Below are positions 12,902-63,083 of a stretch of DNA of 64,000 nucleotides, piece by piece; position 1 is the stretch's first letter, and each line of letters starts with the position of its first letter. A model generated the notes under the pieces. That model had not been told where the DNA came from. It saw nothing but the letters and a program-made list of their open reading frames with translations, and ran no database searches. Both the position numbers and the translations under genes were made by a program. The stretch comes from Desulfitobacterium dichloroeliminans LMG P-21439 (lineage in GTDB: Bacteria > Bacillota > Desulfitobacteriia > Desulfitobacteriales > Desulfitobacteriaceae). The stretch is from the NCBI RefSeq assembly GCF_000243135.2, contig NC_019903.1, positions 2,890,001-2,954,000 on the forward strand. The letters run 5' to 3'.

Positions 12902-12902
12902 T

Positions 12903-13547: not shown

Positions 13548-13594
13548 TGCCTCACCTCCTGTGAACAGATTACTCCCTCAATAATTATTGTGAG

Positions 13595-14464
13595 CTAATT
13601 AAAAGCACGTAATAGGTTCGTTAGGAACCCCCGTATTCCTCCCGCTTGCTTCGGTGGACTGAGATATAAACCAGATACTGAACTGGCAATCCATTGAATA
13701 CATTGAAAGGCTGAACTTTGCGGATAAGAAATACCCACCGGTTCTTGCCTCATCACAGATTTGCCTACTGCTGCATCCTCATACACCCATCCTAAAAGGT
13801 TTAAGGAGATATTTAAGAACCGATAGGAGGCACTCTCTAGACGCTCATATGTATCCTTAGCATCGGATTCCTTTTGAACACGATTCACCACAACGTTGAC
13901 TGAAAAATTGTTTCTCACCTGTTGCAGAGCCTTAAGGAGTCCATAAGCATCCGTTAAAGCGGTCGGTTCTGGAGTGGTAATTAAGATAATATCATCAGCT
14001 GCTTTGAGGAAATTTAACACCGTATGTCCCAGCCCTGCGCCGGTGTCGATGATGATAATATCCGTTAAACCCTCTAAACGACCTAAATTCCTCACGACTT
14101 CTTCTAGTCGTTCCCTCTCAATGTTGGCAAGATCCTGCACTCCAGATCCCCCCGGTAATATTCCAATTCCCTTGGGTCCGTAGATAAGAATCTCCTCAAT
14201 CTCCTTCTCACCACTAAGAAGGTGCTCCAAGGTATAACGTGGCGTTACACCGCAGGCAATATCAAGATTGGCTAGACCTAAATCCCCATCAAGCAAGATG
14301 ACCCGATAGCCAAGATCGATTAGTGCTATGCCTAAATTCACACTGAAATTCGTTTTCCCCACTCCACCTTTGCCACTGGTGACAGCGAGCACACGCAAAC
14401 TCTGCTTTGATTCTAATTTGTGGCGAGAAGCAAGACGTTTTAATACCTTAGCCTGATCATTCAC
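13595..14464 (-). CDS. flhG: Flagellar number/placement ATPase FlhG (YlxH, MinD-like)
   Basis: A 289-residue MinD/ParA-type ATPase. The deviant Walker A is AVTSGKGGVGKTNFSVNLG, followed by ILLDGDLGLANLDIA and IIIDTGAGLGHTVLNFL. FlhG works with the GTPase FlhF to set the number and position of flagella at the membrane. GTG at 14464 is preferred because GAGGGGG then lies about 9 nt upstream and the product begins VNDQAKVLKRLASRH. In-frame TTG 14482, GTG 14479 and ATG 14470 are alternatives with worse spacing. The start overlaps the end of flhF. Confidence 0.9.
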   Translation of the reverse strand: MNDQAKVLKRLASRHKLESKQSLRVLAVTSGKGGVGKTNFSVNLGIALIDLGYRVILLDGDLGLANLDIACGVTPRYTLEHLLSGEKEIEEILIYGPKGIGILPGGSGVQDLANIERERLEEVVRNLGRLEGLTDIIIIDTGAGLGHTVLNFLKAADDIILITTPEPTALTDAYGLLKALQQVRNNFSVNVVVNRVQKESDAKDTYERLESASYRFLNISLNLLGWVYEDAAVGKSVMRQEPVGISYPQSSAFQCIQWIASSVSGLYLSPPKQAGGIRGFLTNLLRAFN

Positions 14465-15698
14465 GTCCATCCCCCTCACCAAGAATATACCGAGTTAGGC
14501 GCTCCGGGGTCGCCACTTCAATATCATCCGGAACATTTTGCCCATTGGTAATATAAGCCACCGGCAGGTTCGTTTTTTCCAATAGGTTTAGAATGATACC
14601 TCCGCCCACGGTTTCATCGAGTTTTGTAAAAATGAGATGAGTGGTTAAGGGCTCAAAGCGCTGATAAATTTTAGCTAAATCCGCGGATTGAGTCGCTGCA
14701 CTCATAACCAGCAGGGTAAGATCCGGCTGTGCCTTGTCGAGGAAGGATTTTAGCTCAGACATATGCAGCTCATGATGAGGGCTACGACCGGCTGTATCAA
14801 TAAATACAAGTTCTTTATCCTCATGACGTTGAATAGCATCACGCAGGCCTGAGGGCGTCATGACCACCTCTACAGGAACACCGATAATCTCGCCAAAGGT
14901 CTTTAGCTGTTCCACCGCTGCTACCCGATAAGTATCGGCGGTGATTAAGGCCACCCGTCGCTTATCGACAATGCTAAAACCAGCAGCTAACTTGCCAATG
15001 GTCGTAGTTTTACCTACACCTGTCGGTCCGATTAAAGCAATAACCCGTGGTTTGCGAACCCCCGGCTGTATGGCAGCTGTATTAACACATATCTGACGTA
15101 TCGATTCTTTAATGCAGGCCCTGACGCGATGGTCTTCATTCCAATCTTCCTCGCGTACATTTTGTTGAACATTGCGTAGAATCCTTTTAATCAGCTTCGA
15201 GCGAATGCCCTGCTCTTTAAGGCGATCAGCCCATTTTTGCAAAGATACGGGCCATACTACTTGTTCGCCCTCTAGTCCCTCAAGCTGACGATTCATGTTC
15301 TCTAACAGTTTGCGCATAGCTAAAATCTCTGTTTCTAAATCGTCTGCTTCTCTAGCCTTGGAAAGACTGCTCTCACCCTGAGGAGTACTTTGCGGCTTCT
15401 CAAGAAATCGGGGAGTTTGGCTAGGCGCTTCCTGAGGCGCGACTTCCCTAAGTAGAGAACTCTCTGGGCGAGCCCCATAGGGGTTCGATGGGTACATAGC
15501 TTTTGCTGATATTTGCTTCTTCACAGGTTCCTCTTCAATTGCAGCCATCACTTCCACCTTAGGTTTGCCGAAAAAACCCAAAAAACCGCCATCTTTAAAT
15601 TGTCGTGTTTGCAGGATAACGGCATCTGAGCCTAGTTCCTGTTTCACCTTGCCCATGGTTTCCGCGACAGTATCGCCAATAAAGCGTTTAACTCGCAT
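14457..15698 (-). CDS. flhF: Flagellar SRP-type GTPase FlhF
   Basis: A 413-residue protein. The N-terminal basic B domain (MRVKRFIGDTVAETMGKVKQ...) and linker are followed by an NG GTPase domain from about residue 150. Its motifs are IGPTGVGKTTTIGKLAAGF (P-loop), DTYRVAAVEQLKTFG, VFIDTAGRSPHH and TKLDE. FlhF recruits early flagellar parts to the correct site, and FlhG stimulates its GTPase. The gene overlaps flhA upstream and flhG downstream, so all three are probably translationally coupled. Confidence 0.93.
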   Translation of the reverse strand: MRVKRFIGDTVAETMGKVKQELGSDAVILQTRQFKDGGFLGFFGKPKVEVMAAIEEEPVKKQISAKAMYPSNPYGARPESSLLREVAPQEAPSQTPRFLEKPQSTPQGESSLSKAREADDLETEILAMRKLLENMNRQLEGLEGEQVVWPVSLQKWADRLKEQGIRSKLIKRILRNVQQNVREEDWNEDHRVRACIKESIRQICVNTAAIQPGVRKPRVIALIGPTGVGKTTTIGKLAAGFSIVDKRRVALITADTYRVAAVEQLKTFGEIIGVPVEVVMTPSGLRDAIQRHEDKELVFIDTAGRSPHHELHMSELKSFLDKAQPDLTLLVMSAATQSADLAKIYQRFEPLTTHLIFTKLDETVGGGIILNLLEKTNLPVAYITNGQNVPDDIEVATPERLTRYILGEGDGRE

Positions 15699-17754
15699 TT
15701 CCAGTCATCACCATCCCTACCGCCTGAACTTGTACCCCATGGACAAGCTCGTTATAAGATAATACTATGAGTTGGGGCAACTGTCGTTCAGTTACCCGTT
15801 TTAAATTAATCCTCACAACCGGTGCACATACCAGTACTGGGTTGAATCCCTTAAGAATCATCTTTTCCATTTCTCGAGCCAAAGACTGCATAACCTCTTG
15901 TAAAACGCGGGGGTCCAGTGTCATATAGCTACCATAGTCCGAAGGTTGAATGCTATCCAGAATCTGTTGCTCTAACTTCGGTTCCAGGGTAAGTACCGGT
16001 AATTCCTTATTGCTACCTAAGAGAGGTTGCACGATTTGTCGTCCTAAGGACTGACGTACGTACTCCGTTAAACGATCGAGATCCTTCGTGGTTCCGGCAT
16101 AATCAGCCAGAGTCTCAAGAATAGTGACCATATCCCGAATGGAAACCCGTTCTCTCAGCAGATTGGAAAGAATCTTTTGCATTTGTCCCAGATTGATGTG
16201 CTCCATGGCATCATCCACAGCTGCCGGAGCCTGCTCGCGAGCGTGATCAAGAAGGGTCTTCACATCCTGGCGGCTTAAAATCTCCCAGGCATTGCTCTTA
16301 ATGACTTCGGTAATATGCGTCGCTAATACCGTAGGGGCGTCCACGACAGTTCCACCATTCATCTCCACTTCTTCCCGGTAAATCGCATTGATCCATTTTG
16401 CATCTAAGCCAAAGGCCGGTTCCTTAGTGGGGATACCCGGGATGTTATCATCGCCTAGGCCGCTGCTCATAGCCAAATAATGGTCAGCCATAATCTCCCC
16501 TCCGGCCACTTCGGCACCGCGTAATTTTATGGAGTACTGATTAGGTTGTAAATTCATATTATCTCTAACGCGAATGACTGGCACTATAAAGCCCAGCTCA
16601 CTGGCTACCTGGCGGCGAATTAAGACTATCCGGTCCAGTAAATCTCCGCCCTGCTGGACATCTACCAGGGCGATGAGTGCATACCCCAGCTCCAGTTCCA
16701 TATTATCGATAGTCAACAGGTTAAGGACGTTCTCCGGCTTTTTGCTTTCTTCGATGGCCGTTTCCCGTGCCGCTGCTGTCTCTTCAACTAGGTTCTGTTG
16801 GCTGCCCCTATCCATGGTTCTTCCAAGAAGCACCAAAGCGATAGCCACGATGAGTAAGGGTACCCAAGGAAGACCAAACATAGCGAGGATTATGCACACT
16901 CCAGCAGTAATATAGAGGGCTTTCGGGGTACGAAAGAGTTGACTGGATAAATCTTGCCCCAAGTTGGTCTCAGAAGCCGCTCGAGTGACCACAAGGCCAG
17001 TTGCAGTAGACATCAAAAGGGCTGGAATCTGTGTGACGAGTCCATCCCCTATCGTAAGCAACGTATAGGTATGTAGGGCTTCCATGATATCCATGCCCCG
17101 CATAGCGATTCCAGTTACAAATCCACCGATGATATTGATAAAGAGAATAATTATCGCGGCAATAGCGTCCCCTTTAACAAATTTGCTAGCTCCATCCATC
17201 GCTCCATAGAAATCGGCTTCGGATTGAATTTTTTTTCGTCGATCCCGAGCTTGTAGATCGGTAATCATACCGGCGTTAAGATCCGCATCAATGCTCATCT
17301 GTTTTCCTGGCATAGCATCCAATGTAAAACGAGCGCCTACTTCCGATACCCGTTCCGAACCCTTAGTAATAACAATAAAATTTACGACAACGAGGATGGC
17401 AAAGATAATAAAACCGACCACTGGTTCGCCGCGCACAACGAACTCCCCGAATTGTTCGATGACATTGCCGGCGTGAGCATCGGCAAGAATTAAACGAGTT
17501 GTGGATACATTAAGAGATAGCCTGAATAAGGTCAAGATAAGAATCAAGGAAGGTAGCACCGAAAAATCCAGCGGATCCTTAGTAAACACCGCAATCATCA
17601 GGGTAAGCACCGCAGAAGTGATGCTGACCGTCAATAAAATATCCAGTAGTAAGGGCGGGATCGGGATGACCATCATGACAACAATAGAAACGATAAAAAT
17701 TGCGGCAAGTACATCGATATTGTTATACCAGCGTCGGCTAATGTTTGTGGCCAT
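15688..17754 (-). CDS. flhA: Flagellar type III export gate protein FlhA
   Basis: A 688-residue protein of normal FlhA length. About eight membrane helices fill residues 15-330. Between them is the conserved cytoplasmic FHIPEP-type loop (GSERVSEVGARFTLDAMPGKQMSIDADLNAG, shown here in part: LDAMPGKQMSIDADL). The cytosolic C-domain, about 345-688, is the docking platform for chaperone-substrate complexes (for example EPAFGLDAKWI, HITEVIKSNAWEILSRQDV). FlhA forms the nonameric ring of the export gate and uses the proton motive force. It lies between flhB and flhF. Confidence 0.95.
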   Translation of the reverse strand: MATNISRRWYNNIDVLAAIFIVSIVVMMVIPIPPLLLDILLTVSITSAVLTLMIAVFTKDPLDFSVLPSLILILTLFRLSLNVSTTRLILADAHAGNVIEQFGEFVVRGEPVVGFIIFAILVVVNFIVITKGSERVSEVGARFTLDAMPGKQMSIDADLNAGMITDLQARDRRKKIQSEADFYGAMDGASKFVKGDAIAAIIILFINIIGGFVTGIAMRGMDIMEALHTYTLLTIGDGLVTQIPALLMSTATGLVVTRAASETNLGQDLSSQLFRTPKALYITAGVCIILAMFGLPWVPLLIVAIALVLLGRTMDRGSQQNLVEETAAARETAIEESKKPENVLNLLTIDNMELELGYALIALVDVQQGGDLLDRIVLIRRQVASELGFIVPVIRVRDNMNLQPNQYSIKLRGAEVAGGEIMADHYLAMSSGLGDDNIPGIPTKEPAFGLDAKWINAIYREEVEMNGGTVVDAPTVLATHITEVIKSNAWEILSRQDVKTLLDHAREQAPAAVDDAMEHINLGQMQKILSNLLRERVSIRDMVTILETLADYAGTTKDLDRLTEYVRQSLGRQIVQPLLGSNKELPVLTLEPKLEQQILDSIQPSDYGSYMTLDPRVLQEVMQSLAREMEKMILKGFNPVLVCAPVVRINLKRVTERQLPQLIVLSYNELVHGVQVQAVGMVMTGNAS

Positions 17755-17788
17755 GAGTGGATTCCTCCTTTCTTACCCCGTATACTTC

Positions 17789-18841
17789 TTATCCAGTATA
17801 TTTCTTTCTTTTGAGCTTATAGACGAAGGCAAGGACCTCTGCTACAGCTTTATAGAGTTCCGCGGGTACGGCTTGCCCAATTTCTGCTTGCGCGAAGAGG
17901 GCACGGGCCAGCGGCCTGTTTTCCATGGTAATGATGCCATATTCTTTGGCAAGCTGTTTGATCCGTTGTGCAATTTCGTCAGCTCCTTTGGCAACGATGA
18001 CGGGAGCTGCATTCTCTTTAGGGTCATAGCGCAGAGCAACTGCATAGTGAGTCGGGTTGGTCACGACCACATCGGCCGTCTTTAAGTCCTGCATCATACG
18101 TTGCATAGCCATGGCTCTTTGCTTCCGCTTAATCTCACTTTTTATTTGAGGATTACCTTCGGTTTGCTTATACTCTTGCTTCATTTCTTCATGGGACATT
18201 TTGAGGTTTTTCTCGTAGTCCCACCACTGATAGAGGAAATCTATCCCGGCAATGACAAAAAAGGATAAAGCAATTTTCCAACCCAGATCGACAATCAATC
18301 CACCTATAAATACGGCCCCTTGGCCTACTGTAAAGCGGGCCATAACCGGAAAGACTTCAAAGTTATCGCGGATTGTTGCGTAGAGGAAATAGCCAATAAA
18401 GATAACTTTTAGCAAGGATTTGGCCAGCTCTACCCAAGCTTTCACCCCAAACATGCGCTTGGCCCCGTTAAGAGGGCTAATGCGACTAAGCTGAGGCTTT
18501 AATGGCTCAAGGGTGAAAAGAGTACGTACTTGCAGGTAGTTGGCACCTATGGCAATAACTGCCCCGACAATAAATATAGGTGCGCCGATTTGAATGCCTA
18601 GCCAAACTAGATCCACCATTAAGCTAGCAACGGAGCGAGTCGTCCATTCGCTCGAGAGCCTATAGACGTAAGTGAATATTCCTTGAGCCTTTTCCAACAT
18701 GGTCGGGACATAGTATTTCAGAAGTGCAATAAAGCTGACTAGCATGAGTGCGGAGACCATTTCCGTACTCTTAAAGACTTGACCTTTCTTGCGCGCCTCC
18801 TGCCGGCGCTTGGGTGTGGCCTGATGTGTTTTTTCACTCAT
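17789..18841 (-). CDS. flhB: Flagellar export switch protein FlhB
   Basis: A 350-residue protein. The basic N-terminus (EKTHQATPKRRQEARKKGQV) is typical, four membrane helices follow, and the C-terminal cytosolic domain carries the autocleavage site NPTH (about residues 262-265 in VVTNPTHYAVALRYD). Cleavage between Asn and Pro allows FliK to switch substrate class. ATG at 18841 is preferred: it overlaps the fliR stop as ATGA and is preceded by AAGGGGTGG at 8 nt. The GTG at 18853 would lie within that Shine-Dalgarno sequence. Confidence 0.94.
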   Translation of the reverse strand: MSEKTHQATPKRRQEARKKGQVFKSTEMVSALMLVSFIALLKYYVPTMLEKAQGIFTYVYRLSSEWTTRSVASLMVDLVWLGIQIGAPIFIVGAVIAIGANYLQVRTLFTLEPLKPQLSRISPLNGAKRMFGVKAWVELAKSLLKVIFIGYFLYATIRDNFEVFPVMARFTVGQGAVFIGGLIVDLGWKIALSFFVIAGIDFLYQWWDYEKNLKMSHEEMKQEYKQTEGNPQIKSEIKRKQRAMAMQRMMQDLKTADVVVTNPTHYAVALRYDPKENAAPVIVAKGADEIAQRIKQLAKEYGIITMENRPLARALFAQAEIGQAVPAELYKAVAEVLAFVYKLKRKKYTG

Positions 18842-19620
18842 GTTTGCTGCCACCCCTTATAAAGCTCTAAAAGCATGTTCATCGCTCGGTCAAAAAGCAT
18901 ATTCACCGTTTCTCCGAAAAAACTAATACCTAAGAATAGAATAATGAAACCAAAAATAATCTTCACCGGAAAAATAACCGTAAAAATATTCATCTGTGGA
19001 ACAGTCCGCATTAACAGTCCTACCCCGATATCAGAAAGGACCAAAGCGCCCATAACTGGCAAAGCAAGCTGAATGGATAATGTAAAAGTATCGCGGAAAA
19101 GATGAACAAAATAATTAATCCCTTGGGGTAGAGCTGACGGATCAATCGGTACATAGTTATAACTCTCGACCATGGCAGCGATCATATAATGGTGGGAATT
19201 GGTCGCCAGCAGTAGCATAATGGCGATAATCATCTGAAAATTCCCCATCATGGCACTTTGTACACCGAAGATGGGATCGATAGCACCACTCATGTTAAAT
19301 CCCATCTGCATATCGATTAATCGACCGGCACCTTCTAAAACTGCTGTAATAGCATAAATGACAAAACCCACGACCAACCCGACAAAGATCTCTTTAATCA
19401 GGAGCCCTACATAGGGTAAGGTCTCACTGGGAATCAGAGGTCCCCTAGCTAGGATGACTGGATAAAGGATAACAGATATGCTCACGGCCAAGCCAAGCTT
19501 AACCATTGCCGGAACACCACGAGCTCCGAATACAGGAGCTAACATAATCATCCCCGCCCACCGGGAGAGAATGAGGAGGAACAGTGTGAGATTCCATTGC
19601 AAAAATTCTGCTAAGCCCAT
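18838..19620 (-). CDS. fliR: Flagellar export gate protein FliR
   Basis: A 260-residue membrane protein with about six hydrophobic helices. FliR hallmarks include FLLILSRWAGMIMLAPVFGARGVPAMVKLGLA (shown in part: RWAGMIMLAPVFG), GAGRLIDMQMGFNMS and QLALPVMGALVLSDIGVGLLMR. FliP5-FliQ4-FliR1 form the helical core of the export pore. Gene order fliP-fliQ-fliR-flhB is the usual one. Confidence 0.94.
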   Translation of the reverse strand: MGLAEFLQWNLTLFLLILSRWAGMIMLAPVFGARGVPAMVKLGLAVSISVILYPVILARGPLIPSETLPYVGLLIKEIFVGLVVGFVIYAITAVLEGAGRLIDMQMGFNMSGAIDPIFGVQSAMMGNFQMIIAIMLLLATNSHHYMIAAMVESYNYVPIDPSALPQGINYFVHLFRDTFTLSIQLALPVMGALVLSDIGVGLLMRTVPQMNIFTVIFPVKIIFGFIILFLGISFFGETVNMLFDRAMNMLLELYKGWQQT

Positions 19621-41307: not shown

Positions 41308-43008
41308 TTATTTCAATAATTGCAAAATCTCTTGAGGCCGGAAGTTCGCTTGAGCCAGCATTGCTTGGGCAGCTTGGCTAAGGATGCTGCTCTTTTGGAA
41401 ATTCATCATTTCCTTTGCTAGGTCTACATCACGAATACGTAACTCACTCGCAGTTATATTTTCCTCGGCATTGGCCAAGTTTAATATTGTATGCTCTAAT
41501 CTGTTTTGAACAGCTCCAAAATAGCTTCGGGCATTTGATACCAACCCTAAAGCTTTATTAATTGTACCTATTGCTGCATTAGCCCCACTCTGTGTCTTAA
41601 TATTTGTTCCTACTAGCTCTAATGCAGACGTCCTAAGATCAAAGCTTTGGAAAGGTATATTCTGTCCAGAATTTGCACCAACGTGAAAAACTATTTCCCC
41701 TAATCCTACTGATCCTGCAGAGTTAACGAAATCCAAGGTGAAATGCGTATTCAAAGTGGCCACACCCGTAGCATTGGGGATTGTCTGATCAAGAGTTAAG
41801 TCACTACTACTACCTTTTGCACCACCGATTGTGATAACGCCAGACCCTTGTGTAAAATCAGCACTTCCCATCAGATAGGTATTTAGAACCCCCGCACTAG
41901 ACGAATTAGCATTAAACCAATTTATAAATTCTGTTGCAGTTGTCAAATCTGCAGCTCCTATCGCACCATCTAATTCTGTCCCTGTAAAATTCTGCGTAGT
42001 GTTTAATAACGCCTGATCGAGCGTATCTCCTGCTTCCAACCGGTCAATTATTGCATTGATCCCATCATCAGTAACCTCATGGAGCACCTTAACTGCTTCG
42101 TAAGCCGAACGATAATCCCCATCAAAAGGGTATCCCATGCTAACATGATGGTCGGTTACGCCAAACAGATTTCCCCCTTGAATGGTCATTGCCAAGCCCT
42201 CGATAAACCAATTTTCTTCAGCTGTATCTACTCCATCTCTACTAAAGGGCATTTCTGTAAACTGAAAAGCATGGACCATTTCGTGAGCTAATAAAGTATC
42301 TAAAATGCCTTCCGGCCTCAGATTACCTGAGCCGTCAAAGACCTTCGCAGTATTGACTCGAAGCGTTAGAGTAGCTCCACCGTCCGCTGTACCCATCGAA
42401 GCTCCAGTCGAAGTTATATCGTTATAGTAATATTCTACACGCATTGGTCGTTTTATTGGGCTATCCGGATAGTCAATCCCCAATCGTGTATAAATAGCCA
42501 CCATACTATCATTGAGCCATCCAGGCAGCTTTGAAGTAAGTTCGTCTAAGGCCGCCTGAGAGATGCCCGTATACTGAGACACTACACTACCACTTTGATT
42601 TAGCAATTTTTTGGTATTAAATTCAGTATCGTTAGCAATCATTTCAATATTACTTAAAATCTGAACCATCTCATCCTGCAAGTAGGCCCTGTCTTCATTA
42701 GTTAATGTTCCGTTAGCGGCTTGAACAGAAAGCTCCCTGCTCCTTTGCAACATATCCTGAATTGAAGCAGCCGCACCCTCAGCAGTTTGAACCAAAGAAA
42801 TCGCATCTTGGGCATTACGGATCGCTTGGCTAAGTCCACGAATTTGCCCACGCATTTTTTCTGATATAGTAAGCCCAGCGGCATCATCACTAGCATTATT
42901 GATTCGTAACCCAGAAGAAACCTTTTTCAAGCCTTTACTTACTTCATTTTGCTTAATTGATAATTTGTTAAAGGTATTTTGAGCTGATATATTATGATAA
43001 ATTATCAT
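41308..43008 (-). CDS. Proteolytic flagellin (flagellinolysin type): flagellin with internal zinc metallopeptidase domain
   Basis: A 566-residue flagellin. Residues 1-138 are the conserved D0/D1 N-terminus (NASDDAAGLTISEKMRGQIRG, SLVQTAEGAA). Residues about 465-566 are the C-terminal D1/D0 and end RPQEILQLLK. The variable region (about 145-400) is a peptidase-like domain: HEMVH at 242-246 (zinc ligands His242 and His246, general base Glu243) and NWFIEGLA with Glu270 as probable third ligand, the gluzincin pattern. This matches the described flagellinolysin family, in which the filament carries thousands of protease copies. A sigma-28 promoter lies 76 bp upstream, the export chaperone FliS is downstream and FkbM/glycan genes lie upstream. 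Enzyme activity is inferred from motif only. Confidence 0.92.
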   Translation of the reverse strand: MIIYHNISAQNTFNKLSIKQNEVSKGLKKVSSGLRINNASDDAAGLTISEKMRGQIRGLSQAIRNAQDAISLVQTAEGAAASIQDMLQRSRELSVQAANGTLTNEDRAYLQDEMVQILSNIEMIANDTEFNTKKLLNQSGSVVSQYTGISQAALDELTSKLPGWLNDSMVAIYTRLGIDYPDSPIKRPMRVEYYYNDITSTGASMGTADGGATLTLRVNTAKVFDGSGNLRPEGILDTLLAHEMVHAFQFTEMPFSRDGVDTAEENWFIEGLAMTIQGGNLFGVTDHHVSMGYPFDGDYRSAYEAVKVLHEVTDDGINAIIDRLEAGDTLDQALLNTTQNFTGTELDGAIGAADLTTATEFINWFNANSSSAGVLNTYLMGSADFTQGSGVITIGGAKGSSSDLTLDQTIPNATGVATLNTHFTLDFVNSAGSVGLGEIVFHVGANSGQNIPFQSFDLRTSALELVGTNIKTQSGANAAIGTINKALGLVSNARSYFGAVQNRLEHTILNLANAEENITASELRIRDVDLAKEMMNFQKSSILSQAAQAMLAQANFRPQEILQLLK

Positions 43009-51833: not shown

Positions 51834-52916
51834 TTATCCCCGAACCATCAAGCGGACGTGAGAAGATTTACCGTATTTTTCTATATGCTTCTTTGCCCTT
51901 CTGCGTAAGGTCAAAAGTAATAACCGCGATTGCTTTAATTTGAAAAGCATAGGGATGACACGGCTGTCAGTCAGCCTTGTTGGATAATACACCTGGCTAG
52001 CCTCATACACAAGAGATGTGTTAACAAGCTCGGTCAATTCTGGTAGAAATCCATCGAAAAAATATTCTTCATATGCTACTGCTTTCACCATCTCTGCAAT
52101 CATATTATCAAAAAACTTAAAAAGAAGCGCATTTTTTATATCTTCGGAGATACCCTGACTGGTAGCTATGACACGCCAAAATTTCCCGAACATGGTTACA
52201 TACAACTTTAATCGGTCTGGATATAACCATGACATCCCTTGGACTCTTTCATCCCCATATTGATAATAAATATATTGGATAGAAAACACATTGTATATGT
52301 TTTTCGCAAAGTTCAAATAATCCGCGACAAACAGGGAGTCATTCCCAATCACAAATTTTTCATCAAACATAATCTTGTTATCAAAGATAATTGAGCGTTT
52401 AAAGATAGAGCCATTAACTGCACTAAGAGCATGACCAATTTGCCCCGGCCCTTCTTCACCGCGCAGAATACTGATTATGGCTTGTGTACTAGTGTAGGTT
52501 TCATAGTGTGGTAGGCAGTATCTCGTAGCAAAATCGCGTGATGATAGGTTATTGCTCTTCTCTATATATGCTCCCACAGCCATATCAGCCGCAGATTCAT
52601 CCATTGCATTCACAAACCGTTCTATCGCATATAGAGGCAATTCATCATCTGAATCACAAAACATAACATATTGTCCGGTTGCCTTTATGAGTCCCGCATT
52701 TCTCGCACTGGCTTCTCCGCTATTCGGTTTATGAATAACACACACCCGTACATCTGTGGCAGCATATTCATCACAGATTAAACCAGATGAGTCAGTAGAG
52801 CCGTCATCAACCAACAATACCTCAATATCGTGATAGCTTTGATTGACTAAACTGTCCACACACCTTTTTAAATATTCTTCTGTATTATAAATAGGCACAA
52901 TAATTGAAACTGTCAT
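51834..52916 (-). CDS. GT2 glycosyltransferase without the Rossmann-like module
   Basis: A 360-residue GT-A enzyme: VSIIIVPIYN-type start (MTVSIIVPIYNTEEYLKRCV), VLLVDDGSTDSSG, NSGEASARNAGL and FCDSDDELP. The C-terminal half is helical and ends in a basic stretch (LTLRRRAKKHIEKYGKSS). ATG 52916 has CGGAGGA 6-7 nt upstream; the longer frame from 52943 would include the Shine-Dalgarno sequence. It resembles capsule and exopolysaccharide GT2 enzymes. It follows the radical SAM gene. Confidence 0.85.
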   Translation of the reverse strand: MTVSIIVPIYNTEEYLKRCVDSLVNQSYHDIEVLLVDDGSTDSSGLICDEYAATDVRVCVIHKPNSGEASARNAGLIKATGQYVMFCDSDDELPLYAIERFVNAMDESAADMAVGAYIEKSNNLSSRDFATRYCLPHYETYTSTQAIISILRGEEGPGQIGHALSAVNGSIFKRSIIFDNKIMFDEKFVIGNDSLFVADYLNFAKNIYNVFSIQYIYYQYGDERVQGMSWLYPDRLKLYVTMFGKFWRVIATSQGISEDIKNALLFKFFDNMIAEMVKAVAYEEYFFDGFLPELTELVNTSLVYEASQVYYPTRLTDSRVIPMLFKLKQSRLLLLTLRRRAKKHIEKYGKSSHVRLMVRG

Positions 52917-52987
52917 TGTATTCCTCCGCGTTTCTCTAATCATAAATAAACACCGTATTATTCATTTTAACTCAACGAAACTTCTAC

Positions 52988-54181
52988 CTATTTTAGAGGA
53001 ATTTGAATTGCACACGGAATGGATTTAACATTGCTACTGAAGCCACGACAGCGACGACAAAAACCGACATATCCTTTATTGGTAAAACCTTGTCGAAACT
53101 CAAGTATCTCCATTTTACTTGAACTTGCTATATCAATATAATCGTTATCAGTTTCCGATGCTATTCCTGCTTTTTGCGCGAACTTATGATAACAACATCC
53201 ATAAATTTGTCCATTGTAAAAGTCGTGCAGAAAACTATTACAATTATCCTTGTGTTTTATCATTTCTTCTTCACTTAGTGATGAATTATCAGTATCATTA
53301 ATTTCAAAGTCATACCAACTATCGGTTCGAACAAGCGTAACAGGAATATCTGCGTTTTCAAATGCACACTTGACCGACTCTATTCTAGAAGCACACAGAG
53401 GAACATTCTTAGAATAATCATCTAAACTAACTGAACACCTTGCTTGCTTAATTGCTTTCAAAACACCTACAGAAGGCACAATACTACCATTTGTAATCAC
53501 AAAAAGTTCAAAAATCCTCTCTCTATAATTTTCAGAAATATAGTCAAGAAAGCGCGGTAGCTCTTTATGCAATAATGGTTCTCCTCCTGAAAAATGCAGT
53601 GAATACAAATAATCAAACTTCGAAAATACCATATCAATATGGCTTTTAAACTCGTTAAAGGTCTCATCCCTAGGATTATTTATGTAAGAAGTAAAATTCA
53701 AGCATCCTTTGCAGTTTAAATTACAACGTGTTGTGAGACAATAATTTGTCCAATGCGATATGAGAATTCCGTATTTATACATCGCCCATACACACAGAAA
53801 ATTCTGTATAAAATTATCGTTTCGGTTATGCTGTTGTAAAGCGGAAAATACATTAACTATACCATACCTATTTAATAACTCCCTTACTTCGTCTTGTCCA
53901 TTTGAAAATGCCAAAATTACTGCCTTCTTTTTAGCATTTTGTCTTGTAGACTCCAATAGCGATTGGGGAGAAAACACTTTTTTACCGCAAAATAGTTCGT
54001 TCTGCTTTTCGCTACATTTATCCAAAAAAATAATATTAAATTTGTTATTAAAGTTTAGGAACAAAAGAAAATCATAACACTTTTTCGCAACCTCTGACAC
54101 GCCCCAGATATACAGATCTTCAACCTGGAGGTATTCTTCTCCAAATTTATCTAGTTCATGGCCTTTACTCGTCCATCTCAT
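52988..54181 (-). CDS. Radical SAM protein with N-terminal Rossmann-like segment
   Basis: A 397-residue protein. The radical SAM cluster motif CxxxCxxC is TTRCNLNCKGC (Cys 153/157/160), with FSGGEPLL at about 198. A Cys-rich C-terminus (NGQIYGCCYHKF ... GFCRRCRG ... PCAIQ) could bind an auxiliary cluster in SPASM or twitch style. Residues about 20-110 look like a degenerate copy of the shared module (LYIWGVSEVAKKC, IIFLDKC, KVFSPQSLL). ATG 54181 has GGGAG 8 nt upstream. Substrate unknown; sugar or peptide modification is possible. Confidence 0.8.
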   Translation of the reverse strand: MRWTSKGHELDKFGEEYLQVEDLYIWGVSEVAKKCYDFLLFLNFNNKFNIIFLDKCSEKQNELFCGKKVFSPQSLLESTRQNAKKKAVILAFSNGQDEVRELLNRYGIVNVFSALQQHNRNDNFIQNFLCVWAMYKYGILISHWTNYCLTTRCNLNCKGCLNFTSYINNPRDETFNEFKSHIDMVFSKFDYLYSLHFSGGEPLLHKELPRFLDYISENYRERIFELFVITNGSIVPSVGVLKAIKQARCSVSLDDYSKNVPLCASRIESVKCAFENADIPVTLVRTDSWYDFEINDTDNSSLSEEEMIKHKDNCNSFLHDFYNGQIYGCCYHKFAQKAGIASETDNDYIDIASSSKMEILEFRQGFTNKGYVGFCRRCRGFSSNVKSIPCAIQIPLK

Positions 54182-54384
54182 AATATGTACTCCCATCATT
54201 GTAGACTGGAATAATGATCAACACATCAGCTTATTTCCCTATAATAAATAGATTCAGATATATCTATTAATAGTAGTAACAACACGGTGGCAATAGATAC
54301 GTTCCAGCAAGTAACCCTCATATATATTTTTGCAGCATAGCCGGCTCGCCAGCAACGATAAGGAGATAACAATTAAACTCAAAT

Positions 54385-55609: not shown

Positions 55610-56473
55610 CTACTGCTCCTTAATGCGATAATGCGTGTACTGTGCTTTATGCGCAATAATCCATTTTCCCATATTTGCTACCATCTGTTCATAAGAAGGC
55701 ACTACAAAAGGAAAATCTGTACGGCAGTTAAGCAAGGATTTATCTTCTTGTACCCTGTTGTCAGGCTGAATATTAATCGGTTCAGTTCTGAGTGAATTTA
55801 ATAACCTCAGCAGCTCGTGCTTGCTGATTCTCTCGCTATTGACCAAGTGATACAATCCCGTCAGATTCCGCTCCAAGGCCAAGGCAATTGCCTCTGCCAG
55901 AACAATCGTTGTGACGCCTGTCCAAATAGCATTAGTATAGCCATGTATGAGACTAGTCTGCCCCATAAACCAATTGAACAGCCCAATGCCATTCTCGTTA
56001 ATATCCGGTCCGATAATGGATGTGCGAAACGTCAGGTTCTTGCTGTCATTGAGTTCTCCCAAAGCCTTTGACCTACCATAAAGTGTATTGGCAGATCGGA
56101 AGCTATCCTCTTGGTAATTGCCCTTTTCATGACCGGAAAATACACAGTCGGTACTCAGGTGAATCACACGGGTAGGAGAATTTGCCGTCAGCTCCGAGAG
56201 CAAATGCGGTAAGCAACTATTCAACCAAATACCGGTATAGGGACTAATATCCACAGCGCGATTCAATACGCCAACACAATTGACCACTGCATCAAAGCTT
56301 TGCTGTTTGAATACGGACTCCAACACTTGGATATCACAGGCATCAGCTACAATCATCTCACAGAAAGGCAAATCTCTCCTGGCAAGTCCGGTGACAGAGT
56401 ACCCCTTCGCCGCTAGACTTAGCGCAATAACATGTCCGGCCATGCCGCCGGCGCCAAGTACAAGCACCCTCAT
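55610..56473 (-). CDS. RmlD-like SDR reductase of UDP-deoxysugar synthesis
   Basis: A 287-residue short-chain dehydrogenase. Cofactor motif VLVLGAGGMAGHVI (GxGGxxG) is at the N-terminus. RmlD-type motifs STDCVFSGHEKGNY and YGRSKALGE (Tyr-x3-Lys) follow. It lacks the cupin domain seen in CapF, so it matches the RmlD-type reductase used in the UDP-L-RhaNAc/L-QuiNAc route (WbvR type) better than the L-FucNAc route. It overlaps the dehydratase upstream (TAATG). Product choice is inferred. Confidence 0.82.
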   Translation of the reverse strand: MRVLVLGAGGMAGHVIALSLAAKGYSVTGLARRDLPFCEMIVADACDIQVLESVFKQQSFDAVVNCVGVLNRAVDISPYTGIWLNSCLPHLLSELTANSPTRVIHLSTDCVFSGHEKGNYQEDSFRSANTLYGRSKALGELNDSKNLTFRTSIIGPDINENGIGLFNWFMGQTSLIHGYTNAIWTGVTTIVLAEAIALALERNLTGLYHLVNSERISKHELLRLLNSLRTEPINIQPDNRVQEDKSLLNCRTDFPFVVPSYEQMVANMGKWIIAHKAQYTHYRIKEQ

Positions 56474-57474
56474 TATGCCAGCTCCTCGCGAATGTATTCC
56501 GTTGTTAGAAGTTTGTCTTTTATTTGCTCAACACTAAGTTGCACTGTGTTATTAGAATTAAACTCATCTATTTTCGACCAGTTGGCTTTGCCTTGTTCAA
56601 AATATTGTTCATAGTTCAAATCGCGATTGTCAGACGGTATCCGGTAAAAACCTCCCAGGTCAACCGCATGCAAACACTCTTCTTTAGTCAGCAAGGTTTC
56701 ATAGCACTTCTCACCATGCCTAATCCCAATATAGTTGATAGGATTATCCGCATGAAACAGATCCTTAACCGCTTGAGCTAAATCGCCAATGCTGGAAGCT
56801 GGGGATTTCTGTACTAGAATATCCCCTGGAGCAGCATGTTCAAAGGCGAACAGCACCAAGTCTACAGCTTCGTCTAAGTTCATTAGAAAACGGGTCATAG
56901 TAGGGTCTGTAATCGTCAGGGGCCTTCCACTCTTAATCTGCTCCACAAACAGCGGTATCACCGATCCGCGCGAGCACATGACATTGCCGTAACGTGTCCC
57001 GCAGATGAGCGTCCGATCTGTGGTCCGCGATTTGGCTACAAATATGCGCTCCATCATTGCTTTGGAAATCCCCATGGCATTAATCGGATAGGCCGCTTTA
57101 TCCGTAGACAGGCAAACCACCTTTTTGACCCCGGCCTCAATGGCTGCGGTCAGAACATTGTCAGTGCCGACACAATTCGTCTTCAACGCCTCCATCGGGA
57201 AAAACTCGCAGGATGGCACCTGCTTCAAGGCTGCCGCATTAAAAACATAATCAACACCGTACATCGCATTGCGAATGCTCTGCACATCCCTAACATCGCC
57301 GATGCAAAACTTGATTTTCTGGTTGCGGTACTGCTTGCGCATATCATCCTGCTTCTTCTCATCACGGGAAAATATGCGAATTTCCTTGATGTCAGTGTCT
57401 AAGAAGCGTTTCAACACTGCATTTCCAAATGAACCCGTACCGCCTGTTATCATAAGTGTAGAGTTTTTAAACAT
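56473..57474 (-). CDS. UDP-GlcNAc 4,6-dehydratase (5-epimerising, WbjB/CapE/FnlA-like)
   Basis: A 333-residue SDR. It has LMITGGTGSFGNAVLKRFL (NAD-binding), RIFSRDEKKQDDMR, VFNAAALKQVPSCEFFPMEALKTN, CLSTDKAAYPINAMGISKAMME (Lys in place of Tyr in part of the catalytic motif) and RYGNVMCSRGSVIP. These are hallmarks of the CapE/FlaA1/PseB group. With the next two genes it forms the dehydratase-reductase-2-epimerase set that converts UDP-D-GlcNAc to a UDP-2-acetamido-2,6-dideoxy-L-hexose. ATG 57474 is preferred to GTG 57477. Confidence 0.86.
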   Translation of the reverse strand: MFKNSTLMITGGTGSFGNAVLKRFLDTDIKEIRIFSRDEKKQDDMRKQYRNQKIKFCIGDVRDVQSIRNAMYGVDYVFNAAALKQVPSCEFFPMEALKTNCVGTDNVLTAAIEAGVKKVVCLSTDKAAYPINAMGISKAMMERIFVAKSRTTDRTLICGTRYGNVMCSRGSVIPLFVEQIKSGRPLTITDPTMTRFLMNLDEAVDLVLFAFEHAAPGDILVQKSPASSIGDLAQAVKDLFHADNPINYIGIRHGEKCYETLLTKEECLHAVDLGGFYRIPSDNRDLNYEQYFEQGKANWSKIDEFNSNNTVQLSVEQIKDKLLTTEYIREELA

Positions 57475-57534
57475 CACATTTTCCCACTTTTCTAGCGAAA
57501 ATATTGCTCTAATCTATAAAAAATTCTCCGATAT

Positions 57535-58634: not shown

Positions 58635-59351
58635 TTATATCCCCAATATTTGCTGATTTTCCTTGGCTTCGTACAATGCGCGAAATATATAATAGTCAGC
58701 TGGAGCTGTAATCTTCATATTATTGGGAGGGCTGATCGCCATATGAAGCTCCATACCGTACATATTGCAAAGGTGCGCAGAGTCAACAGCCACAATACCA
58801 TCCTTGTGTGCCTTTTGATGCAATTTCCAGATTACGCCATAGCGAAAAGACTGGGGAGCCTTAGCAACATACATACGTCCGCGTTCAGGGACAGAATTAA
58901 TTAAATCACCTTGCTCGCTGTAGATAACGCTCTCAATCACCGGCTCAACTGTGATTGCAGTGCCGCATTCTTTAACCTTGGCGATATTAGTAGTGATAAG
59001 TTCCTTGTTAATCAGCGGCCGTACCCCATCATGAATTAGAACAATATCCTCAGACTGACAGATGGCTTCCATGGCTTTAAGCCCATTATAGATCGATTCA
59101 TGACCAGTGGGTCCGCCGGCTACGATTCGCGTAATTTTTCTAAAGTCATAGCGTTTGAGCCAAAGCTTCAGTTCGGCAATCCAGCTTTCCAAACAGACTA
59201 CGACAATATTGTCAATTTCAGGATGTCCCTCAAAATGTTCTAAGGTATAGAGAATAATCGGTTTTCCATGCAGTTCTAGAAATTGTTTCGGTTTGGCGCT
59301 GGCATTCATCCGTTGCCCGGTGCCTCCCGCAAAGATAAGCGCTGTTACCAA
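58635..59351 (-). CDS. IspD/TarI-family cytidylyltransferase
   Basis: A 238-residue protein: LIFAGGTGQRMNASAKPKQFLELHGKPI (nucleotide loop; quoted in part AGGTGQRMNASAKPKQF), VVCLESWI, VLIHDGVRPLI and TVEPVIESV. The form FAGGTGQRM is closer to the ribitol/glycerol-phosphate cytidylyltransferases TarI/Bcs1 than to housekeeping IspD, and the context is polysaccharide synthesis. It should make a CDP-polyol or CDP-sugar. The start is TTG with AGGAGG 8 nt upstream. It stands between an SDR and the TagF-like gene on one side and GT32 on the other. The exact substrate cannot be read from sequence. Confidence 0.8.
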   Translation of the reverse strand: MVTALIFAGGTGQRMNASAKPKQFLELHGKPIILYTLEHFEGHPEIDNIVVVCLESWIAELKLWLKRYDFRKITRIVAGGPTGHESIYNGLKAMEAICQSEDIVLIHDGVRPLINKELITTNIAKVKECGTAITVEPVIESVIYSEQGDLINSVPERGRMYVAKAPQSFRYGVIWKLHQKAHKDGIVAVDSAHLCNMYGMELHMAISPPNNMKITAPADYYIFRALYEAKENQQILGI

Positions 59352-59388
59352 AGCAGTTTCCTCCTAATTCGAATACGTGATTTCACAT

Positions 59389-60444
59389 TTACTGTCCCTG
59401 CCAATCTGCAACCATTCGTTTATACATAGCCATTAGCCCGAAATGGGGCTGCCACCCTAACAATTTCAGTTTATCCACGTTGAGTTGAAAACCGGCATCC
59501 GGTGCATAGCCGCGCTTCTCAATATCATTGGGGATTTGAACAACTGCTTTTATTCTGCCTTGACCAAGCTCGCTTGCCACCAGCTCCGCCATTTCCCTGA
59601 TGGTAACACTGGCCCCCGGATTAGCTATATTATAGGCCTGACCATCTGCACCATACAGTAAGAGCGTCAATAATCCTTGCACAGCATCTGCCAAATAGCA
59701 ATAATTCCCTCTGGATTTTCCCTCAGTATGTAATACAATGTCTTTTCCTGCCAATACACTTTGCGCAAATTGCGTGAACACTCGCGTATCCTCTTTCGAT
59801 GTTCCTGCGCCAAATGTTTGCGCTAACCGTGCGATTTTTACCGGAACTCCGTGCTGTACCGCGTATGCAACGCACAGAGTCTCACAAAGTCGCTTGCTTT
59901 CGGGATAGCTACTCCTAGGGTTGGACAAATCTATATATCCCAAGTCCGTTTCCCTTACTTCGCCGAACAAGCTCTGTCCATAGACTTCCATAGATGACAG
60001 ATAAACAATGCTCTTACACTTCCGTCCTTTGGCAAGCTCCAACAAATTCCTCGTACCATCCACGGCTGTGGTTATGACATCAACCGGTTTCCCCACCATG
60101 TCCGCCGACTTGGTAATTGCCGCACAGTGGAAGATATAATCCACTGTACTGGGGATGTCTTCAATAGATAAGGGCTGACGAATATCACCGTCGATGAACA
60201 CATCCAGTCCGCACTCTTTCGTCAACTTCTCGCCCTTAGCGTTATTCCTGCCGTTGCCGATAAGATTAAGATTAAGCTGGTATTTCTTACTGGCAGCCCT
60301 TAACACACGAGTCAGTGCCGTACCAATCAATCCGGTAGCACCGGTAATAAGCACCGATTTATCTAACATTTCGCACCACGGCAGATGTGGGTCGGAAATG
60401 ATTCGTTCTATATCCTCATCAAAAACACGCTTAGCCAACCACAT
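59389..60444 (-). CDS. NAD-dependent sugar-nucleotide epimerase/dehydratase (extended SDR)
   Basis: A 351-residue extended SDR. The nucleotide motif is SVLITGATGLIGTALTRVL near residue 30; DYIFHCAAITKS, VYLSSMEVYG and SYPESKRLCE (Tyr-x3-Lys catalytic pair) follow. It begins with a 28-residue extension (VFDEDIERIISDPHLPW) seen in some loci with IspD-like partners. It overlaps the TagF-like gene by 14 nt. Paired with the cytidylyltransferase, it may modify a CDP-activated or nucleotide-linked sugar. It takes the place of TarJ, which belongs to a different family. Confidence 0.8.
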   Translation of the reverse strand: MWLAKRVFDEDIERIISDPHLPWCEMLDKSVLITGATGLIGTALTRVLRAASKKYQLNLNLIGNGRNNAKGEKLTKECGLDVFIDGDIRQPLSIEDIPSTVDYIFHCAAITKSADMVGKPVDVITTAVDGTRNLLELAKGRKCKSIVYLSSMEVYGQSLFGEVRETDLGYIDLSNPRSSYPESKRLCETLCVAYAVQHGVPVKIARLAQTFGAGTSKEDTRVFTQFAQSVLAGKDIVLHTEGKSRGNYCYLADAVQGLLTLLLYGADGQAYNIANPGASVTIREMAELVASELGQGRIKAVVQIPNDIEKRGYAPDAGFQLNVDKLKLLGWQPHFGLMAMYKRMVADWQGQ

Positions 60445-63004
60445 TCACTGCTTTCCTAACACACTCATAAATATTTTTCCCTGCTCTGGACACACTGCAC
60501 TTGGTACATGTTTCTCCTGTATCCTCAATTACACATCGCAGATAGTCTTTGAGGGAGAGGGTATTTTCCTGAAATATGGCCGTATCATTATTAACTATTC
60601 CCCTTTGCCTGCGACGATATTGCTCAGATCCTATTTCCCAACTGTCTTCGTTTGAAACAAACACCGTTTGCCTACGAGTCTCACCAGTTTTCGTATTATA
60701 AGCCATCAACCGATTGGTCTTAGTCGAATAACCATAAACCTCTCCATCTATGATTTCCTGCAATAGATACTTACTTTGAATCGGTTGTGTTGGTGAACTT
60801 TCCTGTTCACATTCACTCTGAAACACATCAAGAATTGTTACAGTATCATTCCTTATGTTTAGCTTAAATGCACAATTCCCACTTGCCGGAAGTACAAAGA
60901 CATTGCCATTCTCATAACTAATATTTTGATAAGGAAAAGGTTTACAACTGCTATCATTGCAAACATTATATCCGCACTCCTTAACAACACCCTCTTGAGG
61001 ATTCCACTTGACAATCGCTCCATGTTCTATAGGAGCCATCCAGAAATATTCTCCATCAGAGCATATGCCAACATACCCAGTATTACAGCTTCTTACTTCA
61101 TGAATCCGATGAGTAAAATCTTTTACATCAAATTCCAACACTGCATTTGCTCCACTACCGGCAAGGAATAGTTTATCTCCCAGCAATACACCGCGATAAA
61201 AATAACCATATTCCGCTTTTTTTATTAGGCGCTCCATATCCTTTATCCAGCCCGAATAACACTTAACTTTGCCTGTGATCAAATCATAACGCAAGATTCC
61301 AGGGTAAGTGTGAGGTATAAAAAATAAAGAATCCCCACAATGAAACACCTGTGAAAATTTGCATTCTGGATTATACTTGACTTTTCCTTCTTTCTTCGGC
61401 TTTTTAATGGGACTACATTTGAAAGAATCACTTGCAAGAGAATATCCCGTGATATTGTCTGCTGAATACGGTGCAAAGATGAGTCTGTCATTTACCATGA
61501 TTACATTCAAAAACGCTCGCCAGCTTGCGAACTTTTCATTTTCAAAAAAACCAATATGTTCAGCTGTCCAAGTTTCCTTACTAATTCTAAACAAGCTGTT
61601 CATGTTTACCGGAACGCACCAAAGATAGTCCGCACCATCACAGAGCACCTCGAATATTAATTCAATCTCATCAGCACTTGATAAAATTTTCATATTGGCA
61701 ATCATAACTGGCTTCCCTGTAGCCGCATACAATGTCACTACCGAACTTGCATCCCCATAATAAGCATCAGAAACGGTTATGGCCCTGTGCAAATCGCTGG
61801 TATCATCGTAGATACCCCAGCCTGCCTCCTTGTATTCTTGGACAACCCACATATATCTATCGAACAACTCCGGACGAAATCTCCGAAAATTCAGCTCTGT
61901 ATTGGGATGGGGTCGCCACCAAAGGACAACATCTTCACGGGAGCGAAAGCACTCAAACACAGACTCTAGCTTCTTAAAATACGGCTCTCCGCCATTGATC
62001 CACGTGAACATATGGGTGTTGTAAAGAATGACTTTCTTGGTAGTTCCGTCTTCTCGATAAAGCAGTTGTTCCCAACCCTCGGGAAGGGAGTAGTCATCCC
62101 GTTTCACATTCAAAACCTTATCGAATTTCGGCGAACCAAGGGCGACAAACTTTTCCGTCGGGTTCCCGTAACGACCGTTCCAGCTGTTTTGCTTATCATA
62201 GTGTTTATATTGATCGATATAAGACTGCCGCTGCTCTTCCGATTGCAAAATAACACGGTCGGCATATAGTACACCGGGAAGTGTTGTGTAGTAATCCTCT
62301 ACATACGCTCCGGCGACGACAAAATAAGGTATGTATACAAGCAGATCACAATACTCACGCAAGCGTTTGCTGTAAAAATCAGGGTGAATGCTCGCATTTC
62401 TAGCCGCATCGTCATAGGCATAATGAATAAAGACCACATCTGGACGACGTGCCGCAATATCATATTCCTGCCAATTGGTGATAGGGACATTTTCCGGGTA
62501 TTTACCGCCTTCATAGTGCATCTTCCCGAAGGTTCCGTTAGGAGCAAGCTCATAGTAGGGAATTGGCACAACATAGGCATCACAGCAAGGGTCATCCTTT
62601 GCTTCCAGCCACACCGATTCCAAGCTGTCCCACATTGACGCGTTGTAAGGGAAGAATACTACCTCCAGCTTGTTAGGCTTCAGTTCGGTTTTTACGTTAT
62701 TTTCGATTTTAATCAGCTGCTTTTTTAAGCTTTTCCAAAACTTGTCGCTACCTTTCTGCTCAACAGCAAGGCTTGCTTGATACAAAGATCCATAGTATTC
62801 TCCGAGCAGTGCAACTGTTTGTGTACCTTCTCCTTCGATCCCTACGATAAAATCGCAGATTGCTGTCACGAAATCTTGACAATCAGCCAAAACTTGAAGA
62901 ACAGCGGAATCTTCCCCTTGCAAGAAAAGCAGCTTGAGTTCCGCATTTGCCTCATTCAGTGTTTGTAACAGTTCCAAAATTTTCTTCTGATCGAATCTTC
63001 GCAT
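60431..63004 (-). CDS. CDP-glycerol glycerophosphotransferase-like protein fused to a C-terminal beta-propeller
   Basis: An 857-residue protein. Residues 1-115 are helical. Residues about 115-470 resemble TagF/TagB GT-B phosphotransferases: PYNASMWDSLESVW, VWWRPHPNTEL-like motif (VVLWWRPHPNTELNFRR), DLHRAITVSDAYYGDASSVV and ATGKPVMI. From about 490 to 790 at least five repeats with aromatic-Gly patterns (DSLFFIPHTYPGILRYDL, DKLFLAGSGANAVLEFDV, EYFWMAPIEHGAIVKW, GNVFVLPASGNCAFKL, GEVYGYSTKTNRLMAYN) look like beta-propeller blades. A Cys-containing tail ends it. No export signal. ATG 63004 is the best start. It likely transfers a phosphopolyol or phosphosugar to a glycan. Confidence 0.75.
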   Translation of the reverse strand: MRRFDQKKILELLQTLNEANAELKLLFLQGEDSAVLQVLADCQDFVTAICDFIVGIEGEGTQTVALLGEYYGSLYQASLAVEQKGSDKFWKSLKKQLIKIENNVKTELKPNKLEVVFFPYNASMWDSLESVWLEAKDDPCCDAYVVPIPYYELAPNGTFGKMHYEGGKYPENVPITNWQEYDIAARRPDVVFIHYAYDDAARNASIHPDFYSKRLREYCDLLVYIPYFVVAGAYVEDYYTTLPGVLYADRVILQSEEQRQSYIDQYKHYDKQNSWNGRYGNPTEKFVALGSPKFDKVLNVKRDDYSLPEGWEQLLYREDGTTKKVILYNTHMFTWINGGEPYFKKLESVFECFRSREDVVLWWRPHPNTELNFRRFRPELFDRYMWVVQEYKEAGWGIYDDTSDLHRAITVSDAYYGDASSVVTLYAATGKPVMIANMKILSSADEIELIFEVLCDGADYLWCVPVNMNSLFRISKETWTAEHIGFFENEKFASWRAFLNVIMVNDRLIFAPYSADNITGYSLASDSFKCSPIKKPKKEGKVKYNPECKFSQVFHCGDSLFFIPHTYPGILRYDLITGKVKCYSGWIKDMERLIKKAEYGYFYRGVLLGDKLFLAGSGANAVLEFDVKDFTHRIHEVRSCNTGYVGICSDGEYFWMAPIEHGAIVKWNPQEGVVKECGYNVCNDSSCKPFPYQNISYENGNVFVLPASGNCAFKLNIRNDTVTILDVFQSECEQESSPTQPIQSKYLLQEIIDGEVYGYSTKTNRLMAYNTKTGETRRQTVFVSNEDSWEIGSEQYRRRQRGIVNNDTAIFQENTLSLKDYLRCVIEDTGETCTKCSVSRAGKNIYECVRKAVNVVG

Positions 63005-63054
63005 GTCCCCAACTCTTTCGTGAATTATTATATCTTCTCGGCATTTTAGGAGAA

Positions 63055-63083
63055 AGTATAGCATGAATCCGACATGAATCCAA
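63055..63083 (-). promoter_or_regulatory. Sigma-A-type promoter upstream of the TagF-like gene
   Basis: On the minus strand: TTGGAT, 17 nt, TATACT, with transcription expected about 45 nt before the ATG at 63004. An 8-bp direct repeat, GATTCATG, lies in the spacer. It would drive the run of seven closely spaced genes 63004-54478. Confidence 0.5.

Follow-up and report, generated by a model that had tools for sequence, protein, structure and literature searches.

A SpeY-like Twitch radical SAM protein in a glycan locus of Desulfitobacterium dichloroeliminans, a candidate sugar or polyol dehydrogenase

The window, by which we mean the whole stretch of 64,000 nucleotides of Desulfitobacterium dichloroeliminans DNA analysed here, harbors within a glycan locus a radical SAM gene whose product, an oxygen-sensitive type of enzyme, is a member of a coherent, unnamed and apparently undescribed radical SAM family. 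We consider it slightly better than an even bet that this product is a SpeY-type Twitch radical SAM dehydrogenase recruited into a surface or flagellar glycan locus. Our best reading of its reaction is a two-electron oxidation of a hydroxyl on a glycan sugar or polyol, rather than deoxygenation, epimerisation or methylation, since a four-Cys auxiliary pattern and a SpeY fold coincide with the lack of a conserved extra Cys, of a B12 domain and of a peptide partner. The mechanistic kind is a known one and the setting is new; no description of the family was found in the open-licence full text of PubMed Central, where SpeY, by name or by PDB codes, likewise yielded no relevant match. A previous sequence-only reading had proposed a radical step such as deoxygenation, epimerisation or C-methylation; it was right about the setting and the absent peptide partner and probably wrong about the reaction.

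The gene and the segments of its product are positioned as follows:
52988..54181, minus strand: SpeY-like Twitch radical SAM gene, 397 aa from its likely start, as judged by ORF, model and profiles
54149..54181, minus strand: N-terminal signature MRWTSKGHELD, common to the subclade of the window gene
53846..54115, minus strand: N-terminal Rossmann-like module, residues 29-118, a diverged version of the module that the locus's glycosyltransferases and methyltransferases carry
53702..53725, minus strand: CNLNCKGC, radical SAM [4Fe-4S] cluster ligands C159, C163 and C166, from sequence and family conservation
53576..53587, minus strand: GGEP motif, residues 205-208
53048..53242, minus strand: Twitch domain with four conserved Cys (C320, C335, C381, C384), a predicted auxiliary [4Fe-4S] site

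The open reading frame spans 52988-54199 on the minus strand (403 aa), and residues are numbered throughout from 54199. We prefer the start at 54181 because this is where the signature MRWTSKGHELD begins, and the signature recurs in family members, again N-terminally; its pattern, Wx[NS][KR]G[HYQFW][EQKRD], was found within the first 60 residues of 9 of 1312 called genes, all family members, and internally in none of the 1312. Pfam Radical_SAM (PF04055) matches the protein at 42.3 bits against a cut-off of 29.5, placing it in the superfamily, and both CNLNCKGC and SGGEP (residues 204-208), which the sequence-only reading had picked out, are indeed present. The six further C-terminal Cys it had counted fall within the last 84 residues (320, 335, 336, 381, 384, 396), and four of them are conserved in the family. 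A SPASM domain with two auxiliary clusters is not indicated, as PF13186 scored 17.8 bits (cut-off 21.5) and the conserved C-terminal Cys number four rather than the required seven. No Pfam match to a B12-binding domain was seen in the window protein up to E 1, which argues against C-methylation. The protein passed none of the curated NCBIfam models and has weak database matches by itself, its family assignment coming from profiles and the structural model. Around the gene, no Rfam match was found in window 40000-64000, and promoter-like sites were at chance level (14 found vs. 12.4 expected). PF13486, used to see whether the host is a dehalogenating relative, gave a single match that stayed below its cut-off.

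To define the family, named genomes were scanned with a four-row alignment (A2), alignment A1 being too diverse as a query; 134 relatives were confirmed, and the best 80 of these 134 loci were pooled with earlier loci and filtered at 140 bits against a profile started from 12 members, which left 108 non-duplicate members, the gene calls in the relatives' loci being mechanical ORFs. Their hosts include Lachnospiraceae, Ruminococcaceae, Synergistales, Treponema, Brachyspira, Gastranaerophilales, Helicobacter, Elusimicrobiota, a Holosporales MAG, a methanogen MAG and others, many of these relatives being on MAG contigs that are possibly misbinned. Plasmid-collection records added relatives in a deltaproteobacterium and in Nonomuraea; single-sequence scans of genome-contig and viral-contig collections found nothing, and tblastn of phage records gave no match. 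In a sample of the phylum, the family occurred in at least 6 of 398 genomes by sequence and at least 9 of 398 by profile, with the first four candidates per genome scored. Among NCBIfam models listed for 65 members (alignment A3), none was specific to the family.

Conservation follows the predicted clusters closely. The CX3CX2C motif occurs in 108/108 members, with C159, C163, C166, G206 and N237 invariant, as are Y262 (107/107) and Q399 (98/98), and with W295 in 100/106. The Twitch Cys are conserved to a similar degree (C320 in 105/106, C335 in 104/106, C381 and C384 in 104/104), with a spacing of C-X14 to X20 (one X27)-C, a GX4C motif in which the Gly is found in 81 of 103, and a CX2C motif in 104/104. 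As GX4C and CX2C are the motif form of the four-Cys Twitch cluster, we assign the family to the Twitch class. All seven cluster Cys, three for the SAM cluster and four of the Twitch pattern, occur in 101 of the 108 members; four of the other seven are cut by contig ends, and three are full-length with a substitution, each without one Twitch Cys. In the tree, the window gene groups with its relatives in [Eubacterium] cellulosolvens (L025) and Ruminococcaceae UBA1320 (L026) at a support of 0.967, this clade being nested in a subclade of nine members (0.978).

This pattern of Cys also bears on whether the protein is an epimerase that inverts a carbon centre of a sugar once the glycan is complete, in the way NeoN acts on neomycin, a reading we deem unlikely. 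NeoN-type enzymes act on sugars, glycosyltransferase and sugar genes surround the window gene, and net inversion could also arise if a separate reductase re-reduces a ketone. However, radical SAM epimerases such as NeoN and EpeE return the hydrogen from a conserved non-ligand Cys, and outside the seven ligands the best Cys column is filled in 59/106 members, the window protein having Leu324 there; C336 and C396 of the window protein are not conserved across the family. Cys-dependent epimerisation, as proposed before, is thus disfavored for want of a conserved eighth Cys.

The fold speaks for oxidation as well. The AlphaFold model from 65 family sequences has a pLDDT of 91.8 and a pTM of 0.91; VIA-align put SpeY first with Z 21.5, 21.3 and 21.1 (246-249 residues aligned, rmsd 2.7-2.8), followed by BtrN (13.9) and anSME (12.8) and, lower down, BlsE (11.1) and DesII (10.4), the structure lists compared being without AprD4, NeoN and HygY. 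Foldseek gave SpeY at 2.4e-9 and its first non-SpeY row at 2.5e-5. Family profiles also had SpeY on top, at 6.9e-18 (12 rows) and 8.7e-19 (65 rows), spanning both SAM core and Twitch, vs. an E of 0.46 for the window protein alone, for which structural-alignment identity is 15-16%. We regard this match as specific, because a control profile of 11 other radical SAM proteins from similar loci placed BtrN on top (1.1e-30) and matched SpeY at 8.3e-7 over the core only; this control group is likewise nearest to a Twitch alcohol dehydrogenase structure. With SpeY the nearest solved relative by profile and fold over SAM core and Twitch, we group the family as SpeY-like; because structures are available for only a handful of Twitch enzymes, a deoxygenase or epimerase whose structure is unsolved could be a closer relative. 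A deoxygenase or dehydratase of the AprD4 or DesII type, removing a hydroxyl or amino group, would suit the substrate class and the radical chemistry, and DesII and BlsE do appear in the structure list, but SpeY is far closer than either, and a dedicated AprD3-like reductase was not identified (no profile search for one was made). We therefore hold this reading to be improbable, and deoxygenation, another of the reactions suggested earlier, to be less likely than dehydrogenation.

The neighbors of the gene define the setting:
51834..52943, minus strand: GT2 glycosyltransferase adjoining the radical SAM gene downstream, a pairing that recurs in L025 and L026
54478..55656, minus strand: WecB/CapG-like UDP-N-acetylglucosamine 2-epimerase
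55610..56473, minus strand: CapF/RmlD-like reductase (RmlD family, below the NCBIfam cut-off), which we take to be CapF
56473..57477, minus strand: CapE/FnlA-like UDP-GlcNAc 4,6-dehydratase/5-epimerase (FnlA 533 bits, below the cut-off of 730)
58635..59351, minus strand: IspD-like cytidylyltransferase (NCBIfam: D-ribitol-5-phosphate cytidylyltransferase; 168.2 bits, cut-off 166)
59389..60444, minus strand: extended SDR paired with the cytidylyltransferase
60431..63064, minus strand: large protein, weakly similar to CDP-glycerol glycerophosphotransferases (17.8 bits, under the cut-off of 22.1)

The CapE-, CapF- and CapG-like genes lie upstream of the radical SAM gene and presumably encode a UDP-N-acetyl-L-fucosamine pathway, some of them scoring below NCBIfam cut-offs. 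Their cassette with the radical SAM gene and GT2 recurs in two other genera, where the radical SAM relatives are 40% identical and the accompanying proteins are CapE 62%, CapF 48%, CapG 55% and GT2 44% (L025), and CapE 84%, CapF 60%, CapG 75% and GT2 35% (L026); in all three loci, the radical SAM gene sits directly between CapG and GT2. These findings bear out the earlier placement of a radical SAM enzyme inside a glycan locus. No gene clearly consuming a keto sugar, be it aminotransferase or reductase, was seen beside the radical SAM gene in the window, which counts against oxidation. Genes at window 58635-63064 (IspD-like, SDR and glycerophosphotransferase-like) suggest a CDP-polyol, ribitol-like glycan component, and a ribulose-phosphate 3-epimerase gene precedes the IspD gene in L026.

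The link to glycosyltransferases, which the sequence-only reading had proposed to check by co-occurrence, extends across the family. With profiles for GT2, IspD and the phosphotransferase built from the same loci as those counted, we found GT2 at 50 of the 68 named family loci (density 0.92 per 10 kb) but at 2 of the 12 control loci, which carry other radical SAM genes (density 0.29 per 10 kb), and CDP-polyol-type glycan genes (IspD-like, glycerophosphotransferase-like) in 14/37 module loci vs. 0/42 module-less ones (Fisher 4.9e-6, post hoc and ignoring kinship), the split being drawn at 126 or more residues before the motif, which puts some long or fused ORFs in the module class. Of 127 immediate-neighbor ORFs of family genes, 28 are GT2 by Pfam, the scan covering 127 of 155 ORFs, with 19 from L004-L019 and 9 of more than 600 aa left out and ORFs above 720 aa dropped earlier; across the 3.62 Mb of the host's genome, PF00535 matched 19 times. 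In Butyrivibrio YAB3001, some 6 kb separate the family relative from a flagellin-domain gene, the sole clear flagellin match among the loci, two weaker ones being in control loci (L096 and L103); since just one family locus has a clear match, we regard the family as glycan-associated, not flagellin-specific. The flagellin of the window locus (41308-43008, minus strand) is itself a flagellinolysin, with a metallopeptidase-type insert (HEMVH) between the flagellin ends (NF033876 222.4 bits, cut-off 205).

Could the enzyme instead mature a protein or peptide, whether a RiPP-like one or the flagellin? Peptide maturases of the radical SAM/SPASM type abound, about 10 kb separate the flagellin gene from the radical SAM gene, and PqqD-like genes occur within eight genes of module-less relatives at six loci (L057, L061, L066, L073, L074, L090), which makes peptide chemistry possible somewhere in the wider family; L073 also has a second PqqD protein with a weak HPr-kinase-like match. 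Against a maturase, the window gene has no PqqD gene beside it, and the flanking gaps hold only unsupported small ORFs of 20-57 aa, in agreement with the earlier remark that no precursor gene is visible there; none of the peptide-maturase models among the 25 listed NCBIfam matches came near its cut-off, and the conserved cassette consists of glycosyltransferase and nucleotide-sugar genes instead. We judge a maturase very unlikely. Clustering with a peptide-maturation or housekeeping group, the outcome that would have spoken against the earlier reading, was not found either, as no NCBIfam model was passed and the best solved relative is SpeY.

Several loci of relatives contain further radical SAM genes. 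L026 has four family genes at 9986-19515, three of them among module GT2 genes, plus a sub-threshold radical SAM protein (12270-13505). Glycan loci of this kind (L011 10855-16105, L010 15134-16147, L030-L033, L005 and L053) also harbor a second radical SAM group, whose profile matches BtrN at 1.1e-30; the Brachyspira plasmid pBHWA1 carries five consecutive genes of this group. A plasmid glycan cluster of a cockroach-gut deltaproteobacterium (L009 13049-16951 and 21446-22723) encodes four additional radical SAM proteins that bear an IYIWGA-type module at the N-terminus. In 14 loci (L031 6738-8864 and 13 more), the radical SAM gene has as an immediate or close neighbor the gene of a protein of about 700 aa with an N-terminal module and a HAD-like stretch; the one tested, from L031, had no Pfam or NCBIfam match.

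The N-terminus of the window protein does resemble the shared module, as had been noticed, in divergent form: a profile of six window module copies matched residues 29-118 at 18.8 bits (E 4e-5), vs. 6.2 bits for the best of 500 shuffles. Modelled alone, the module reached moderate confidence (pLDDT 78.2), with fold neighbors WbaP (Z 10.5), Rex (9.7), 3nkl, a quinovosamine dehydrogenase entry (9.7), sugar acetyltransferases (8.4-8.7) and an FkbM protein (8.0). Forty-four of 108 members have at least 130 residues ahead of the SAM motif, and those with the module fall mostly in one clade (29 tips 0.93, 30 tips 0.72).

The radical SAM gene looks newly acquired. At 34.1%, its GC content is below that of the CapEFG-like genes (46%), of the window (44.3%) and of every 1.2-kb tile of positions 1-40000 (39.8% or more), and its start is crossed by a remnant of another gene:
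54165..54230, minus strand: leftover 5' part of a GT2 gene (ADVLIIIPVYNDGSTYYEMDE*), overlapping the beginning of the radical SAM ORF in a different frame

The pattern I[IV]P[VA]YN occurs three times in the six frames of the window, namely in this remnant and at two real GT2 starts. By single-sequence search, the gene is present in 1 of 45 genomes of the host's taxonomic family, this being the window gene itself, with no relative in the 44 others. Five matches in four other genomes of that family yielded three stretches that we read, and these carry CapE- and CapG-like genes without a family member; hence the locus probably existed before the gene was exchanged into it, and the upstream pathway does not depend on the gene. 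The same finding weakens the notion that the gene is part of the UDP-FucNAc-like pathway itself, so that of the radical step on a nucleotide sugar or glycan envisaged earlier, the glycan setting stands and this nucleotide sugar is a poorer candidate. Most improbable, in our view, is that the gene is a non-functional passenger brought in by recent recombination and now decaying: the low GC, the GT2 remnant at the junction and the lack of relatives in the 44 genomes would all fit, but the frame is open with all catalytic motifs intact, and the same neighbors (CapG-like upstream, GT2 downstream) recur in two other genera.

Returning to dehydrogenation, we surmise that the three-Cys cluster would cleave SAM and that the resulting 5'-deoxyadenosyl radical would abstract hydrogen from the carbinol carbon of a sugar or alditol unit. 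Loss of a proton from the substrate radical and transfer of its electron to the auxiliary [4Fe-4S] cluster with its four Cys would then yield a keto group, and the partner GT2 or later enzymes may place or use the oxidised unit in a glycan presumably carried on flagellin. The Rossmann module probably assists in binding a carrier, nucleotide or partner that the other module enzymes use as well.

To our knowledge, the Twitch radical SAM alcohol dehydrogenases characterised so far belong to antibiotic biosynthesis. If the family consists of their relatives in the surface-glycan clusters of many phyla, anaerobes could put carbonyl groups and their derivatives on surface sugars by radical chemistry, and glycan loci currently annotated merely with a "radical SAM protein" would gain a handle. 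Surface or flagellar sugar coats may then carry sugars oxidised by radical chemistry, as the family recurs in the glycan clusters of many microbes. A broader proposal, which we find conceivable yet doubtful, is that radical SAM sugar dehydrogenases form a widespread unrecognised surface-glycan branch in anaerobes, in which SpeY-like enzymes fused to the module, at times encoded in tandem with glycosyltransferases in alternation and accompanied by the second, BtrN-like group, would convert individual residues of the glycan or polyol-phosphate chain into keto sugars as it grows, in the present case on flagellin.

Among known systems, SpeY (PDB 7wzv, 7wzx, 7x0b), an antibiotic enzyme of spectinomycin biosynthesis, shares with the family the SAM core and Twitch, and the seven cluster Cys, GGEP, Asn237 and Tyr262 all align. 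It differs in that 1) family Trp295 aligns with a Phe of SpeY in profile alignments; 2) SpeY has 322 residues and is matched over the SAM and Twitch parts only; 3) the family sits in glycan loci. The N-terminal module has the fold of the Rossmann accessory domains of the PglD/WbaP/Rex/FkbM type, whereas the window protein is without their catalytic partner and its glycine loop is degenerate (GVSEVA). BtrN of butirosin biosynthesis (4m7s, 4m7t) has the same Twitch architecture with one four-Cys auxiliary cluster, but is more distant, with Z 13.9 and a weak profile match (E 3e-4) over the SAM core only. According to one source (PMC9012708), BtrN oxidises a cyclitol alcohol, the four-Cys auxiliary cluster is the proposed final electron acceptor in this two-electron oxidation, and MoaA stands in contrast, three Cys leaving its cluster site open.
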